Shown in pieces: positions 1-30,422 of a stretch of DNA of 30,422 bases. The notes below the pieces were generated by a model. The model was not told where the DNA came from, did no database searches, and worked only from the letters and a program-made list of their open reading frames with translations. The DNA is from a virus, in IMG/VR virus record IMGVR_UViG_3300030450_000123, positions 1-30,422 of that record; one strand, given 5' to 3'. Within the stretch, counting starts at the first letter, position 1. The number at the start of each line of letters is the position of its first letter. The translations under genes were made by a program, and so were the position numbers.

Positions 1-98
1 TGAAATAGAGGATATAAACTTGTACGTTCCATATCGATCTCCCATATATCACCTGTTGTTACTGTTTTAATATTTAAGTGTTGTTCACCTACACACTT
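1..98. repeat. Terminal direct repeat, left copy (contig closure)
   Basis: Bases 1-98 are identical to 30323-30420. Position 99 differs (g on the left, a on the right) and position 100 matches again. Terminal overlap of this size is what an assembler leaves when it walks around a circular or circularly permuted molecule, and a gene reads uninterrupted through it. The inferred unit length is 30,322 bp. It could instead be a true short terminal repeat of a linear virion genome; the sequence alone does not separate the two. Confidence 0.95.
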
Positions 99-967: not shown

Positions 968-2287
968 TTATTGTACGTAATACTTACCGAAGTTACTATC
1001 TATCTCATAGTACATACGCATCATCATTGCATCTGAATAATCAGGGGATCTACCTAAAATGTTTTTGATTATATCTTTAGGTATTATTTGTAGTTTATTG
1101 TCTTTGTCCATATCTTTAGATCTCACCTGTTCTAATTCTTCTATTATCTGGTTCTTTTGTGTAATATCATTTGTAGTAATTCCTATCTGTCCTTTATTAA
1201 TTAATTCAGATAACTTATAATAACATTGTGTTTTAAGGTTCTGGTAATTTTCTTTATTCATTGGCCTTGAATTATTTACAAAACCTTTACATTTCAACAT
1301 ATCAACCGCACCACCCCCCACACCATCTTCATCACATATTATATTACGTAAATATACACCCTCGTTACGTTGTAATGTTCTTATTTCCTCGACAACCTGT
1401 GTTATAGACGTTTTAAGGAACGATCTAATCTTTTTAATAGTTAGCCCTTCCCAATACATAATAACTGTCTTATCACTTCCAAAACGTGCTATGTCACAAG
1501 TTATGTATTTATCACCTTCTTTACCTTTTTGTTCAAATAGATTAATTATAGAATCATAGTTACATAGGTTATCATTACTTGCGTTGTATTCCCAATTACC
1601 AAATAATAATCTTTGTTTACTTATTTCGTCTAGTTTCTGTAATTGTCCTTTATAGTGTATTGATATATAAGGGTTATCGTCTACTAAACTTTGTATAAAC
1701 TTCTTGTGTGTTTCTAATTTGTTCTCTTGTGCTGGTCTATAGTATTGTGTGTATGTCCAATTCTTAGATGGATTGCACGTTAGTAATAGTTTAGGTATCA
1801 AATTAAATTCATCTAACTTATAACGTATTCTACTATTTACTATATTCTTAGCCTTCTCTGTTATCTGATTAGCTTCGTCTATAAATGCACCTGATATTTC
1901 TAACGAACCTAAACTGTCATAATTAGGATCAGCTGGATAATGAAATAGATCTTTTAAATATATCTCACTACCATTATAGAAGGTAATTATATTTGAACCA
2001 CCATTAAATGTAAAATGTTTACCTGCTATTATATTCCATTTCTGACAAACCTCGAAGAAAGTATTTAAAGTTGTTTTCTTTAAGTTATCTAATTTAGATC
2101 TCCCCATTAGATACCTTGTTCTTGGATATTTTAAACAAGCTAGTATTAACCACGCACAACCTATAAAAGATTTACCACCACCTGCTGCACCACCAAATAA
2201 TATATCACTCGTAGTTTCGTCAAATAAATATTTTATAGCTTTTTTTTGTGTACTTGTAAATGTAGGATTAATATTCAACTCCGTCAA
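968..2287 (-). CDS. terL: Terminase large subunit (packaging ATPase/nuclease)
   Basis: This 439-aa protein has an N-terminal packaging ATPase and a C-terminal RNase H-like nuclease. Walker A is GGAAGGGKS at about residues 32-40, Walker B is AFIDEAN (Asp137, Glu138), and the coupling motif LLLTCNPS lies at about 167-174. Nuclease acidic residues appear in ITCDIARFGSDKT (Asp265, Asp272), IICDEDGVG (Asp319, Asp321) and the C-terminal SPDYSDAMMM. It cuts the concatemer and drives DNA into the prohead through the portal. Its ATG lies inside the end of the small-subunit gene (20-bp overlap), so the two are translationally coupled. Length is normal for the family. Confidence 0.96.
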   Translation of the reverse strand: MTELNINPTFTSTQKKAIKYLFDETTSDILFGGAAGGGKSFIGCAWLILACLKYPRTRYLMGRSKLDNLKKTTLNTFFEVCQKWNIIAGKHFTFNGGSNIITFYNGSEIYLKDLFHYPADPNYDSLGSLEISGAFIDEANQITEKAKNIVNSRIRYKLDEFNLIPKLLLTCNPSKNWTYTQYYRPAQENKLETHKKFIQSLVDDNPYISIHYKGQLQKLDEISKQRLLFGNWEYNASNDNLCNYDSIINLFEQKGKEGDKYITCDIARFGSDKTVIMYWEGLTIKKIRSFLKTSITQVVEEIRTLQRNEGVYLRNIICDEDGVGGGAVDMLKCKGFVNNSRPMNKENYQNLKTQCYYKLSELINKGQIGITTNDITQKNQIIEELEQVRSKDMDKDNKLQIIPKDIIKNILGRSPDYSDAMMMRMYYEIDSNFGKYYVQ

Positions 2288-2621
2288 TATTGATATTTAT
2301 TTTTATAGGTTCGTCACCGCTTGTTATATCTAATTCTGACTTTTCTATATAACCTCGCTTCTTACCTTTAGTTTTTAAATAGAATATTGTTGCTGATGTA
2401 TTACCTTTCTCTATTTGATTATGTAGTTTACTTTCTACAAAGTCAAGTGCTATATTGTCAATGTCATTGACTTTCTTAGCAAATTCCTCATCTTCGTTTA
2501 ACCATTTATAAAATGTAGATCTAGGTATATCTGTTTTTTTACAAGCTATTGTTACTACACCTAAACTATTCTCTAACGCTTGTATCATTGCTTCCTTTTT
2601 TATGTGCCTACTTTTGTCCAT
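2268..2621 (-). CDS. terS: Terminase small subunit (DNA recognition)
   Basis: This 117-aa protein carries an N-terminal helix-turn-helix (KKEAMIQALENSLGVVTIAC ... IPRSTFYKWLNEDEEF, about residues 8-45). A helical middle suited to oligomerisation follows (IALDFVESKLHNQIEKGN), then a segment ATIFYLKTKGKKRGY shared with many phage small terminases. It selects viral DNA for packaging and hands it to the large subunit encoded immediately after it. It starts only 2 nt after the stop of the dioxygenase gene, so packaging and base modification are in one transcription unit. The leader GATAAATAAAA before ATG is A-rich with no Shine-Dalgarno. Confidence 0.85.
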   Translation of the reverse strand: MDKSRHIKKEAMIQALENSLGVVTIACKKTDIPRSTFYKWLNEDEEFAKKVNDIDNIALDFVESKLHNQIEKGNTSATIFYLKTKGKKRGYIEKSELDITSGDEPIKININIDGVEY

Positions 2622-2623
2622 TT

Positions 2624-3427
2624 TTATTTATCTTTAAAATATTTTAATGAATAGAATATCAAACTATTTCGATACCCTGTTTCGTGTATTGGTTTTATTG
2701 GTGTAACACCATGCATATTTCTCCATGCAGGATAAACTAACATACTATTATCTGCCTGTTCAAATGTTGTGTTGTAATCAGGAACATTCAAAGATCCCCC
2801 TTTACTATTGTTTCTTTTAGTTAATATAACATTAACCGATCCGACTAAGTTACCTGTATCTCTATGAAAAGCTGCTGCAATATTGAAGTTAGATATACTG
2901 CTTGTAAACATATTACCGAACTTCCACTTATCGTCTATACTTTCAAACATCTTCATTTGTCTTTCATATATTGTTGGTGCAACTTCTTTTATAACTTTCT
3001 CACTTTCCATTGCTGTAGCTAACATTGCTTTTATAAATGTCTGTGCCTTTTTATCACTATGTACTGATGATCTACTTGGATATGTTCTTCTTAATAATGC
3101 TCGAGGTGCAAGGCTTCCTAATATAGTAGAATATTGTAACACAGGATTATCTAATTTATATTTACCATACTTCTCATAACCATCTCTTAAAGATTCTGAT
3201 CTTAACATTTCTGATTTAGGCACGTTGTCACTTCTAAATTCATTATTAGAAACAGATAATAATTTACTTAACCTATCATTATACTTAGATACGTCTTTAA
3301 TATAGAATCCTATTATCTCGCCTTCATCTTCTAATAAACAATCTTCTGTTATTGTTGGTTCGTAATAAGGGCACTTATCACCTATCTTTACATTATGTTC
3401 TACCTTTTTTAATTTAATTGTTTTCAT
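2624..3427 (-). CDS. TET/JBP-family 2-oxoglutarate/Fe(II) dioxygenase (DNA base oxidase)
   Basis: The 267-aa protein shows the complete double-stranded beta-helix signature in its C-terminal third. AAAFHRDTGN gives the first metal ligands (His188, Asp190). RNMHGVTPI gives the second His (His239). GYRNSLIFYS gives the 2-oxoglutarate-binding Arg (Arg253). The HRD...N, R-x-x-H-x-x-TP and R-x-S-x-x-FY spacing matches what I recall of TET proteins closely. Family members hydroxylate 5-methylcytosine (TET) or thymine (JBP) in DNA. It overlaps the glycosyltransferase gene by ATGA and precedes terS by 2 nt, so it most likely oxidises a phage DNA base for later glycosylation. The actual base is not determined; no C5-methyltransferase is visible here. 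The N-terminal 100 residues are family-specific and unassigned. Confidence 0.85.
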   Translation of the reverse strand: MKTIKLKKVEHNVKIGDKCPYYEPTITEDCLLEDEGEIIGFYIKDVSKYNDRLSKLLSVSNNEFRSDNVPKSEMLRSESLRDGYEKYGKYKLDNPVLQYSTILGSLAPRALLRRTYPSRSSVHSDKKAQTFIKAMLATAMESEKVIKEVAPTIYERQMKMFESIDDKWKFGNMFTSSISNFNIAAAFHRDTGNLVGSVNVILTKRNNSKGGSLNVPDYNTTFEQADNSMLVYPAWRNMHGVTPIKPIHETGYRNSLIFYSLKYFKDK

Positions 3428-4149
3428 TTTACTATTTTGTTTAATGATTTTGCATAACCTTTTATATCAACTCTTGAATCTATTCTGTCTTTCTTTTTAA
3501 TTAATTTTGCGTATGGATGCCATTTTTTTGTTAAGTTTTCTGCCCAAATAATGTCCTTTTTATTCTTATACAGATCAAAAAGGCCTCCACTATTACTACC
3601 CACGTTAGGACAACTGAACCAATAATGATTAAATCTAAGAACACCATAACCATTTTTAATAGTTTCCATTTGAAAGTCACGATCTTCTTTAGTGTTGTCC
3701 TCATAATTCCAATGTATTTTTTCTATATTCATTAATACACAAACCTCTGCAAACTTTCTGTTTATAGAATAACTTGTTTTCTCATGCCATGCATGCTGTG
3801 TATAATTTATTCCTATTAATTCAAAAGGTAATTTTTTTGCTTTATTTAAAATATCTAACCATATACCCGCGTCTTTCTTTACTGTCTTTCCGTTATATAT
3901 ACCAAAAGAAATAACGTCATCATCACATATAATTACCCACTTATGATTATTTTCCCTTGCATAATTTAACATAAAGTTTCTTACATATGTTACACCTTTA
4001 TCATTTTCTTTTATATCTACTTTGTTAGGCACTTTATATAATTCATATTCCTGTGGTTCTACAAAATGTTTTACCTGTATTCCTACATCTTGGAACAACT
4101 TATATGTCTTTGTATTTGGCCTGCCTTTTGTAGGTATATAACAAATCAT
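3424..4149 (-). CDS. TET-associated-type glycosyltransferase (putative DNA glycosyltransferase)
   Basis: This 241-aa GT-A-like protein begins MICYIPTKGRPNTKTYK, the nucleotide-sugar-binding start typical of the TET-associated glycosyltransferase (TAGT) group. It has a triple-aspartate metal-binding motif in WVIICDDDVISF (Asp76-78) and a later acidic KEDRDF motif (about residues 154-159) suited to the catalytic region. A Trp/His-rich stretch FNHYWFSCPN follows. Such enzymes transfer a sugar from a UDP-type donor. Adjacency to the TET/JBP-like oxidase (4-nt ATGA overlap) and to a ParB-like gene (1-nt TAATG overlap) suggests the acceptor is the hydroxylated DNA base. Donor and sugar cannot be read from sequence. 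Confidence 0.78.
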   Translation of the reverse strand: MICYIPTKGRPNTKTYKLFQDVGIQVKHFVEPQEYELYKVPNKVDIKENDKGVTYVRNFMLNYARENNHKWVIICDDDVISFGIYNGKTVKKDAGIWLDILNKAKKLPFELIGINYTQHAWHEKTSYSINRKFAEVCVLMNIEKIHWNYEDNTKEDRDFQMETIKNGYGVLRFNHYWFSCPNVGSNSGGLFDLYKNKKDIIWAENLTKKWHPYAKLIKKKDRIDSRVDIKGYAKSLNKIVK

Positions 4150-4721
4150 TATTCTGGTAATTTAGAAGATAATAATTCCATTAACATGCCACCAATATAA
4201 TTTCCAGCCTTTCTATGTATTGATATAAGTTCAAGTGCCTTTTCGTGATCGTCTTTATCAAAGTCAATTAATATACCTTTCCTTACGTCATCTGCCATAT
4301 CTTCAACTTCTGAATCTAAATTAACATCTTCTAATATAGAATAGTCAACCACTTCTTCAGGTTGCCATACGTCCATCCCCCAATCTTTTAAATCTCTATT
4401 ATCCCATTCATTTGCTAACAGATCCCAATTCCACTCACCGAACCCTACATTGTCTTTAACTATAAACTCTTTCTTTTGTTTATCTGTTAAACCTTTAGCT
4501 ATTTTAATTGGTACTTCTTTTATTCCTGCTTGCTGACAAGCTTTAAACCTCATGTTACCACCTAGTATAACCATTTCTTCGTCTACTACTATTGGTCTAA
4601 GTTTTAACATTTCAGGAAATTGCTTAATACTTTCTACTAATTTTTTAAATTTCTTATCCTTTATGATCCTTGGATTGTTTTCATTTGATACTAACTTACT
4701 GATTGATATTGTTTTGTCCAT
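4149..4721 (-). CDS. ParB-like N-terminal domain protein
   Basis: This 190-aa protein opens with the ParB/Srx fold: ISISKLVSNENNPR (residues 4-18), then an IKQFPEMLKLRPIVVD strand-helix region and the signature GGNMRFKACQQAG (about 53-66). Then come KKEFIVKDNVGFGEWNWDLL and NRDLKDWGMDVW, as in phage ParB-like proteins often found beside DNA methyltransferases. There is no obvious C-terminal KorB-type HTH, so it is unlikely to be a classical partition protein. ParB folds can bind or cut DNA or use nucleotides. In this setting it probably helps direct the modification enzymes. It heads the ParB-glycosyltransferase-dioxygenase-terminase unit and has the conserved TTTATATTATATA element before its ATG. 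Confidence 0.8.
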   Translation of the reverse strand: MDKTISISKLVSNENNPRIIKDKKFKKLVESIKQFPEMLKLRPIVVDEEMVILGGNMRFKACQQAGIKEVPIKIAKGLTDKQKKEFIVKDNVGFGEWNWDLLANEWDNRDLKDWGMDVWQPEEVVDYSILEDVNLDSEVEDMADDVRKGILIDFDKDDHEKALELISIHRKAGNYIGGMLMELLSSKLPE

Positions 4722-5767: not shown

Positions 5768-6149
5768 ATATTTTCTTTATTCCGTTATGCACTGTACTTA
5801 AACATGATCTACAATTTGTTGTTACTTTGTAATTAAAATCATATATAGTATTGTATAATTCTATTAGTTTCTTTTTTGTTTCATGATCTTTTATTGTTCT
5901 ATTTTTTATATCAGGATATATATTTAAAACTTCTTTTAATAAATGTTTTGGTAACTCTTTAGGCGCTTCGTGTTCTTTAGTTGCTAACCAGTATTCTTTA
6001 GGACATTCCATAACTGATATAGATGCTTTTATTCTCATAAAACAACCGCAATTAGTACAAGTACCTGTAGGTTTAAAATAGTCGTCACACCTTCTACACA
6101 TACTTAACCTTTCTTTATAGGTTTCTTTATTTACAAAAAACTTATTCAA
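5748..6149 (-). CDS. Zinc-ribbon protein of the CxxC...CxNCGCF type
   Basis: This 133-aa protein contains MCRRCDDYFKPTGTCTNCGC followed by F, M and then ECPKEYW, giving Cys18, Cys21 and a second Cys cluster plus a final Cys-Pro: a compact treble-clef or ribbon. A second pair, TNCRSCL, lies near residue 112. The start is TTG at 6149-6147, inside a TTGA overlap with the methyltransferase stop. The first in-frame ATG (Met17) would cut into the Cys cluster, so TTG is preferred. Similar proteins occur in Bacteroidetes phages without known function; nucleic-acid binding is a reasonable guess. Confidence 0.65.
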   Translation of the reverse strand: MNKFFVNKETYKERLSMCRRCDDYFKPTGTCTNCGCFMRIKASISVMECPKEYWLATKEHEAPKELPKHLLKEVLNIYPDIKNRTIKDHETKKKLIELYNTIYDFNYKVTTNCRSCLSTVHNGIKKIYDEYKK

Positions 6150-6883
6150 AATAATTTAGTTTGTTGTTGATGTTCTTTAATTCTTTTTTCTGCTATCTTA
6201 AAATAATTTTCATCTTTCTCAATACCAATAAAGTTTCTATTTGTATTCTTACAAGCTACTCCAGTAGTACCGCTCCCCATAGTAAAATCTAAAACTGTTT
6301 CATTTTCGTTTGTGTAGGTTTTTATCAGGTATCCCATTAAAGCTACAGGTTTTTGTGTTGGGTGTAAACCACATTGGCTACTGTGTTTTTTTATGTCAAT
6401 TATGTTTCTTGGAAATTTTAGTCCAGTTAAATCATCTTTTGTTCGTTTTATATTCCCCCTTGTTTCTGCATAGTTGCCCATAGATGCCCCTTGTTTGTGG
6501 TTTTTTTTGCCTTTCCATTTTATCGGTTTATAAGAGCATTGCCCATCATAAAAGATACTTATTTGTTCTGTATATCTCATTGGCTGTTTATTAGCCATTG
6601 CAAAATTTGTCGGGTTTCCTTTATCCCACACCCAATCATATTTATAATTCTTAATATTACTCATTCTTAAAGCACTTGAAAAGGGTTCGCTACCAAATAA
6701 AACAATAGCGCCGTTAGTTTTTATAATTCTGTTTAACTGCTCCCACATCAATTCAAAATCAATAACACAATCCCATTTACAAGCCGTTGTGCCGTAAGGT
6801 GGATCTGTTATTATTGCATCAATACTTCCATCAGCAATCTCTTTCATTATTTCTAAACAATCTCCTTTATATAAGTTAATCAT
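6146..6883 (-). CDS. DNA amino-methyltransferase (DPPY class, N6-adenine/N4-cytosine)
   Basis: This 245-aa, Rossmann-type methyltransferase has DPPYGT at residues 27-32 (motif IV, catalytic), HPTQKPV at about 174-180 and the SAM-binding DFTMGSGTTG at about 199-208 (motif I). Motif IV precedes motif I, which is the beta-class order. DPPY favours N6-adenine over C5-cytosine, so it would not supply 5mC for the TET-like enzyme. The target recognition segment probably lies between residues 85 and 160 (DKGNPTNFAMANKQPMRYTE). It is coupled by overlap to the sigma-like gene upstream (8 bp) and the zinc-ribbon gene downstream (TTGA). No restriction enzyme is visible nearby, so it looks like an orphan. 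Confidence 0.9.
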   Translation of the reverse strand: MINLYKGDCLEIMKEIADGSIDAIITDPPYGTTACKWDCVIDFELMWEQLNRIIKTNGAIVLFGSEPFSSALRMSNIKNYKYDWVWDKGNPTNFAMANKQPMRYTEQISIFYDGQCSYKPIKWKGKKNHKQGASMGNYAETRGNIKRTKDDLTGLKFPRNIIDIKKHSSQCGLHPTQKPVALMGYLIKTYTNENETVLDFTMGSGTTGVACKNTNRNFIGIEKDENYFKIAEKRIKEHQQQTKLF

Positions 6884-7433
6884 TTAATTTTTCTTTAATT
6901 AAGTTTCTTACATTGTCTATTGTAGTAAATAAACTATTCCTACCGATACCTGTTTTCTTTGCTAGGCTATCAAGTGTATTATCTTCATAATAGTATAGCT
7001 TGAATAAATCTCTGTCATACCAATATATATTATCAAGTATCTTATCAATCTGTTCTAATTTATTCCATTGATAAACCTGTTCTTTTTCAGGTAAATTATA
7101 TAGGTATTTAGAAGGTATTATTTCACCGTCTATTGTTTCTCGACTTATATTACAGTTGTCATCTAATCTTGTATAATATTTTTTAAATTTATAGTAATAC
7201 CTGCTATTTTTACTTTGTAAACTTCTTTTAATTACTACTGCACCAAACCTTATTAACCCTTTTTTACCGTCCTTTTTATATATCTTCTTTAGTGTTTCAG
7301 GGTTCATCTGTAAAAAGTATAACATTAATTCCTGTACTACTTCGTCTATTTCGTTCTTATCTTGTATAAGTCCGTAAGTCATTTTTACAAATTCATCTCT
7401 AAGATCTCCAATAACTTTATATATTTTATTCAT
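6876..7433 (-). CDS. Sigma factor-like protein
   Basis: This 185-aa protein has the general build of a small phage sigma or ECF-like factor. The N-terminal helical region (LRDEFVKMTYGLIQDKNEID followed by EVVQELMLYFLQ) resembles sigma region 2. The C-terminal helix-turn-helix (LDSLAKKTGIGRNSLFTTID, about residues 154-173) resembles region 4. A basic, Tyr-rich linker (KNSRYYYKFKKYY) lies between. If it works as a sigma factor it could direct host RNA polymerase to phage late promoters, for which the repeated TTTATATTATATA element is the obvious candidate. It could also be a terminase-like or regulatory HTH protein. Confidence 0.65.
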   Translation of the reverse strand: MNKIYKVIGDLRDEFVKMTYGLIQDKNEIDEVVQELMLYFLQMNPETLKKIYKKDGKKGLIRFGAVVIKRSLQSKNSRYYYKFKKYYTRLDDNCNISRETIDGEIIPSKYLYNLPEKEQVYQWNKLEQIDKILDNIYWYDRDLFKLYYYEDNTLDSLAKKTGIGRNSLFTTIDNVRNLIKEKLND

Positions 7434-9592: not shown

Positions 9593-10009
9593 TTAAAATA
9601 TAACTATCATTGAATCATGCATACCCGCTTTATCTTCTACATATTCACCGAAAGTATTTACACCTTTAAATTTAATTCTTTTATATACAAATCTAATTTC
9701 TTTTTTATTAGGTAATATATAATGATGAAATAATTTTGTAGAAGTTGATACAGGTAATAACATTACACATAGTTTACCTTTTTTACTTTCTTCTATTGCT
9801 TTTAATACAAAAGATTCTTTTAATTTTCTAGAATAAGGCGGGTTTATAAAGTTACTTTTACCCCATTCTATATGCAAACCATTCCATTTTTTTAAATCAT
9901 GTTGCAGTGGACATGGATCAAAGTCAAAATTAAATTCTTTATTAAGTGGATCATAGATATATTCAGGTGTTGCCCAATCGTCTACGTGGTTTAAGTTTCT
10001 ATTTTTCAT
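9593..10009 (-). CDS. Phage Dam-family N6-adenine methyltransferase
   Basis: This 138-aa protein is the short phage form of the DNA N-6-adenine-methyltransferase (Dam) family. DDWATPEYIYDPLNKEFNFD is followed by FDPCP, and the catalytic INPPYSRKL (Asn56-Tyr59) is present. C-terminal strands end in GMHDSMIVIF. It would methylate adenine in phage DNA for protection or timing. It is an amino-methyltransferase, not a C5 enzyme. It starts inside the end of the HTH gene (11-bp overlap). Confidence 0.88.
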   Translation of the reverse strand: MKNRNLNHVDDWATPEYIYDPLNKEFNFDFDPCPLQHDLKKWNGLHIEWGKSNFINPPYSRKLKESFVLKAIEESKKGKLCVMLLPVSTSTKLFHHYILPNKKEIRFVYKRIKFKGVNTFGEYVEDKAGMHDSMIVIF

Positions 10010-29977: not shown

Positions 29978-30422
29978 ATTGTAGTGTTGTCTATTGGTAC
30001 ATTACAACTGTTTAATTCGTTTTCTATTATTACACTAAAGGTCATTACCCAACCCGTGACACTATTAGCAAACCGTTCTGTAAATGGTTCTAATGTAAAA
30101 TCGTCACCTATAAAATATCTAGGCTCTTCACCTGCTGCTGCATCATAACCATATAGTATTTCACCATGTTTAAATATTGCTACAATATCATTCATGATCT
30201 CGCATGTATCAGACATTACTTCTTGTTCGTTTGCTTCGTTAGGTTCTACTAAGTCCATTACAAATAACTGAAAGTTAAATGTCCTTTGATGTAATGATAT
30301 ATCTACTGAAGTCGGATTAACATGAAATAGAGGATATAAACTTGTACGTTCCATATCGATCTCCCATATATCACCTGTTGTTACTGTTTTAATATTTAAG
30401 TGTTGTTCACCTACACACTTAA
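29965..30422 (-). CDS. Tail-completion/joining-like virion protein, C-terminal part (5' end continues at the left edge)
   Basis: This is the remainder of the 169-aa protein that starts at 152. The body alternates strand-like and helical stretches and contains an acidic helix (VEPNEANEQEVMSD) followed by a hydrophobic helix and a C-terminal strand (VTGWVMTFSVII). Size and position, just upstream of tail genes in a minus-strand operon, fit a tail terminator, tail completion or head-tail joining protein. I see no catalytic motif. The role is inferred from context and general look, not from a recognised domain; the existence of the gene is well supported by its uninterrupted reading across the repeat. 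Confidence 0.75.
   Translation of the reverse strand, partial: KCVGEQHLNIKTVTTGDIWEIDMERTSLYPLFHVNPTSVDISLHQRTFNFQLFVMDLVEPNEANEQEVMSDTCEIMNDIVAIFKHGEILYGYDAAAGEEPRYFIGDDFTLEPFTERFANSVTGWVMTFSVIIENELNSCNVPIDNTTICVK
30323..30420. repeat. Terminal direct repeat, right copy
   Basis: Exact copy of bases 1-98. The right copy is followed by 'aa' where the left copy continues with 'ga'. Confidence 0.95.

Follow-up and report, generated by a model that had tools for sequence, protein, structure and literature searches.

Phage systems in which a TET/JBP dioxygenase adjoins a glycosyltransferase were reportedly predicted by Iyer et al. in 2013, and the Pfam glycosyltransferase family TAGT takes its name from its association with TET. 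The same pairing is found in the window, by which we mean the whole analysed stretch of 30,422 nt (IMG/VR virus record IMGVR_UViG_3300030450_000123). Compared with the systems of Iyer et al., the lineage of the window, probably marine flavobacterial phages, has a fixed ParB-slot-TET-TerS-TerL gene order with an exchangeable slot, and it adds support for thymine as the substrate from the slot partners and the missing C5-methyltransferase.

The kinetoplastid base J pathway (JBP and J glycosyltransferase) resembles the window in its predicted logic, hydroxylation of thymine in DNA followed by glycosylation. TAGT is presumably homologous to the J glycosyltransferase. To our knowledge, base-J-type chemistry is confined to kinetoplastids and their relatives. 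In contrast, the window is of phage origin, with small separate enzymes, no detected J-binding domain and a product that is predicted. In ViI-like phages, hydroxymethyluracil is made in the nucleotide pool by a thymidylate-synthase-like enzyme. Here, the search for a thymidylate-synthase-type hydroxymethylase (PF00303) gave nothing above cut-off in 21 records, comprising the window and relatives, and oxidation would thus occur in DNA. The likeness to the ViI-like systems lies in the slot of the window's relatives, which holds homologues of their kinase and of their amino acid:DNA transferase (ADDT, PF18724). The DNA of Salmonella phage ViI contains hypermodified thymidine (PMC6449724).

Cytosine hypermodification by phage TETs has been demonstrated (Burke 2021, as cited in PMC12730594), in phage TET/C5-methyltransferase/glycosyltransferase systems that yield glycosylated cytosine. 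They share with the window TET-type oxidation and subsequent glycosylation in phage DNA, which for the window is read from the genes. However, the Burke-type system starts from a phage C5-methyltransferase, which the window lacks (PF00145). Actinophage ParB-TET-ADDT-kinase clusters (Coopervirus Zemanar, Gordonia phage Wooper, Rhodococcus phage Tonitrus) also place ParB and TET upstream of the terminase. They carry a hydroxymethyluracil-type kinase and ADDT, whereas the window has TAGT instead, and their TETs share only about 25% identity with that of the window. The Tonitrus ParB/TET/ADDT/kinase cluster has been termed a thymine hypermodification system (PMC11955845). Beyond the work of Burke 2021 and that of Iyer et al., the present analysis appears to add three points, namely a cassette that is fixed beside the terminase genes in a lineage of marine phages, the exchange of the slot gene among phages that are otherwise nearly identical, and relatives with a kinase and without ADDT (G045, G047).

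The cassette and its genome

The features of the window that are discussed below are as follows.

1..98, no strand assigned: terminal direct repeat, copy 1, identical to 30323-30420
968..2287, minus strand: terminase large subunit (TerL; Pfam Terminase_6N, 6.7e-8; PHROG)
2268..2621, minus strand: terminase small subunit (TerS; PHROG terminase small subunit, E 2.9e-9), adjoining TET in nearly all lineage relatives
2624..3427, minus strand: TET/JBP-type Fe(II)/2-oxoglutarate dioxygenase, 267 aa (Pfam, AF2 model, Foldseek, conserved ligands)
3424..4149, minus strand: TAGT, TET-associated glycosyltransferase, 241 aa, DDD at residues 76-78 (Pfam), in the exchangeable tailoring slot
4149..4721, minus strand: ParB_N-domain protein, 190 aa, first gene of the cassette (Pfam PF02195, E 2e-8)
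30323..30420, no strand assigned: terminal direct repeat, copy 2, exact 98-bp match to 1-98

The exact 98-bp terminal repeat makes it probable that the contig represents an entire genome of about 30.3 kb, assembled as a circle, and the absence of a gene from the window therefore carries weight. Similar terminal overlaps are present in seven of the eight long relatives inspected. The large terminase shares 54% identity with that of Flavobacterium phage 11b and 51.5% with that of Cellulophaga phage phi10:1, and the window thus probably represents a small marine phage with a host within the Flavobacteriia. A scan of genome contigs for hosts returned one short MAG contig. The TET relative L094 lies on a short contig in a betaproteobacterial MAG and is probably a misbinned phage fragment.

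The initial annotation had described three genes for a ParB-like protein, a glycosyltransferase and a TET/JBP enzyme, coupled by overlaps. All three identities are borne out by Pfam matches above the curated cut-offs (ParB_N, TAGT, Tet_JBP), and both overlaps, TAATG between ParB and TAGT and ATGA between TAGT and TET, can be read in the sequence. The TAGT-TET overlap is exactly 4 bp in 47 cases, which argues that the cassette genes are probably translationally coupled.

The order of ParB, slot gene, TET, TerS and TerL is kept across many related marine phage contigs, and its recurrence in dozens of independent contigs excludes chance. For 119 distinct TETs, the sequence reached far enough upstream to show the neighbouring genes. 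ParB is found two genes upstream with TAGT in between in 53 of them, with an FkbM methyltransferase in between in 38, and with a P-loop kinase in between in nine. Terminase genes lie downstream of the cassette in the window and MED4-184 lineages. This neighbourhood suggests that the modification would be timed with late expression or packaging.

The dioxygenase

The oxygenase is a TET/JBP family member by its sequence and its modelled fold. It matches Pfam Tet_JBP (PF12851) with an E value of 8.1e-13 and 48.4 bits (cut-off 34.9). The ligands listed in the initial annotation are all present and are invariant in 82 relatives; by alignment to TET2, H188, D190 and H239 are the iron ligands, and R253 is the 2-oxoglutarate arginine. 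The AF2 model reached a pLDDT of 92.7 and a pTM of 0.90 when built on 54 diverse homologues, compared to a pLDDT of 59 for a set of 26 close relatives. In a Foldseek search with this model, ranks 1 to 26 were occupied by TET2 (E 6e-12), CcTET, NgTET1 and CMD1, with FTO and AlkB behind the TET-type PDB structures. Profile and fold thus rule out the outcome considered beforehand, that the oxygenase might fall in an unrelated 2OG-Fe family. A single-sequence PDB search with TET and TAGT gave no useful match.

Phage homologues of the enzyme are widely labelled as queuine tRNA-ribosyltransferase or as SNF2 DNA repair protein (phrog_6059; NC_020847, NC_023701, NC_025422), apparently wrongly. The automatic tRNA label, together with the occurrence of FkbM-type and glycosyltransferase folds in glycan pathways, could be taken to mean that the targets of the cassette enzymes are RNA, protein or surface glycans, with no relation to DNA. 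We regard this as extremely improbable, since the best fold matches are TETs that act on DNA, the partner genes (kinase, ADDT and ParB) are members of clusters for DNA hypermodification, and the queuine tRNA-ribosyltransferase label is unsupported by any Pfam match. In view of the family profiles and the fold, a TET/JBP and TAGT system for DNA hypermodification, as originally proposed for this locus, is still the best reading, with a modified base as its predicted product.

The glycosyltransferase and the ParB-like protein

TAGT matches PF20691 with an E value of 7.7e-13 and 49.3 bits (cut-off 27.5), and its gene overlaps that of TET by 4 bp. The protein starts with MICYIPTKGRP and contains the DDD motif, both as pointed out earlier. 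It shares 33% identity with its counterpart in Nonlabens phage P12024L. In one related locus, a second glycosyltransferase (Gly_transf_sug, DXD type; L055:3-656) precedes TAGT, so that decoration with two sugars is possible.

In the ParB-like protein, PF02195 is the only domain above cut-off, and the HTH and dimerisation domain of a canonical ParB partition protein were not detected; the TIGR00180 score is 23.7 bits against a cut-off of 58.45. The NPR motif (N16-P17-R18), G55 and the P-motif arginine R58 are conserved in 130 relatives. The protein resembles ParB domains that occur as fusions with DNA methyltransferases of phages (phrog_498). A recent survey describes folds of the ParB type as NTP-binding and as frequent fusion partners of such methyltransferases (PMC12704722). 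ParB-domain genes also adjoin a phage cytosine carboxymethyltransferase, in a study that left their function unassigned (PMC12783734). The ParB-like protein of the window probably binds NTP and/or DNA, and it may target or regulate the cassette enzymes.

The exchangeable slot

The position between ParB and TET is taken by TAGT, by an FkbM methyltransferase, or by a P-loop kinase related to the 5-hydroxymethyluracil DNA kinase, sometimes together with ADDT. The slot kinase is related to the PF18751 family (Ploopntkinase3), whose member in Gordonia phage Wooper bears the annotation 5-hmU DNA kinase. ADDT, absent from the window, is present in cassettes of relatives: it is clustered with TET in L107, L109 and L254, and it joins the kinase there and in L241. 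ADDT homologues span 376 phage records, and Salmonella phages account for 162 of these.

For some pairs of loci, the slot enzymes differ although the TETs are 91-99.7% identical and the DNA flanks 90-96% identical. The kinase of L024 and the TAGT of L030 are embedded in DNA that is 92% identical before the slot and 96% after it. The flanks are 92.5% and 90% identical for L028 (TAGT) and L056 (kinase), and 95% and 93% identical for L201 (FkbM) and L231 (TAGT). L247 carries ADDT and kinase and L248 carries TAGT, with TETs that are 99.65% identical. On a tree of 84 TET representatives, no fewer than 16 switches of slot type are needed; with shuffled labels, the mean is 27 and the lowest value 23. 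The slot type is thus partly inherited, yet often swapped.

Since the swaps occur between near-identical neighbours, we infer that a shared oxidation product is the substrate of TAGT, kinase and methyltransferase, and plausibly a single oxidised base serves all three. A single conserved oxidation thus seems to supply several DNA disguises. Mycobacteriophage Acadian has both TAGT and kinase, and the two are therefore not always alternatives on the same hydroxyl. The Acadian locus (L090:1707-3588) combines TAGT, a PIG-L type deacetylase and a kinase, a hint of an N-acetyl sugar that is deacetylated later; the Acadian cassette as a whole reads ParB-TET-TAGT-deacetylase-kinase. Proteins of the mycobacteriophages Zemanar (L275:2875-3465) and Acadian (L090:3022-3588) are labelled terminase small subunit, yet they are P-loop kinases (PF18751, 3e-71 and 3e-61). 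Two of the genomes with terminal overlaps have the slot kinase without ADDT (L080 in G045 and L098 in G047), and their final base may carry a phosphate group.

The tight adjacency to the terminase genes and the ParB_N protein in the same operon might also indicate that modification is confined to a few sites selected through ParB, where it would serve as an epigenetic mark or a packaging mark close to the pac region instead of protecting the genome throughout. This appears very unlikely to us, because the repeated exchange of the end chemistry is more readily reconciled with diversifying selection imposed by host nucleases than with an unchanging packaging signal. With hypermodification as the preferred reading, we tentatively entertain a broader scenario, in which a marine phage lineage keeps a conserved thymine-oxidising TET as a hub, while recombination at a fixed slot swaps the second enzyme. 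The bases would be a base-J-like glycosyl-hydroxymethyluracil in the window, 5-methoxymethyluracil with FkbM, and 5-phosphomethyluracil with the kinase in the absence of ADDT, and near-identical phages would differ in the surface chemistry of their DNA. The exchangeable slot would then exemplify how phages change their DNA disguise by replacement of a single gene, and it would be a source of new DNA-modifying enzymes.

Thymine or cytosine as the oxidised base

A C5-cytosine methyltransferase was searched for as PF00145 in whole records, many of which are fragments. It is absent from the window, from 46 of 49 records when the window is counted, and from 47 of 49 further records (93 of 98 in total). 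None was found in the seven relatives with terminal overlaps, or in nine isolates with a cassette of this kind (MED4-184, P12024L, Tonitrus, Acadian, Wooper, Klevey, Margaery, HTVC112P and Zemanar). In control genomes, the same search found the family in 10 of 14.

Nevertheless, the substrate of TET could be 5-methylcytosine that comes from host methyltransferases or is provided in trans; oxidation would give 5-hydroxymethylcytosine, and TAGT would then glycosylate it. There are precedents in the Burke-type systems, in the five of 98 related records with PF00145, and in Methylophilales phage Melnitz, where the C5-methyltransferase lies beside TET and overlaps it in a cytosine-type set-up. We nonetheless consider cytosine unlikely, given the lack of a C5-methyltransferase in the window, the nine isolates and most of the related records, and given that the slot is common to the hydroxymethyluracil-type kinase and ADDT.

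Active-site residues do not help in this choice. The TET of the window has N193 and L261 at the positions of TET2 N1387 and H1904, which were considered as a discriminator between thymine and cytosine. They were dropped, since the C5-methyltransferase-linked TET of Melnitz also has no His at the TET2 His1904 position, and the residues thus leave the question unsettled. Thymine is more likely than cytosine, because a phage C5-methyltransferase is missing and the slot of the relatives holds the hydroxymethyluracil-type kinase or ADDT, with specificities that are transferred from homologues.

Taken with the family and fold assignments, this makes it likely that the cassette directs a post-replicative DNA hypermodification in which thymine is oxidised and then glycosylated. 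In phage DNA, the TET/JBP enzyme would hydroxylate a pyrimidine at its 5-methyl group, most likely converting thymine to 5-hydroxymethyluracil. TAGT would add a sugar to the new hydroxyl, which would give a base-J-like nucleotide, and the sugar-capped base might shield the phage DNA from host nucleases. Should thymine be the substrate, abundant marine phages would also produce chemistry of the base J type. Among recorded isolates, Prochlorococcus phage P-HS2/MED4-184 (ParB-FkbM-TET), Nonlabens phage P12024L (TET-TAGT) and Pelagibacter phage HTVC112P carry related cassettes and are open to direct mass spectrometry.

The window also encodes N6/N4 and Dam-type DNA methyltransferases (6146-6883 and 9593-10009). 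They were rejected as makers of the TET substrate, as they are present in only four and two of 82 loci, respectively, and they are probably independent accessories. An open reading frame at 6876-7433, with the look of a sigma factor by eye, is kept in 41 related loci.
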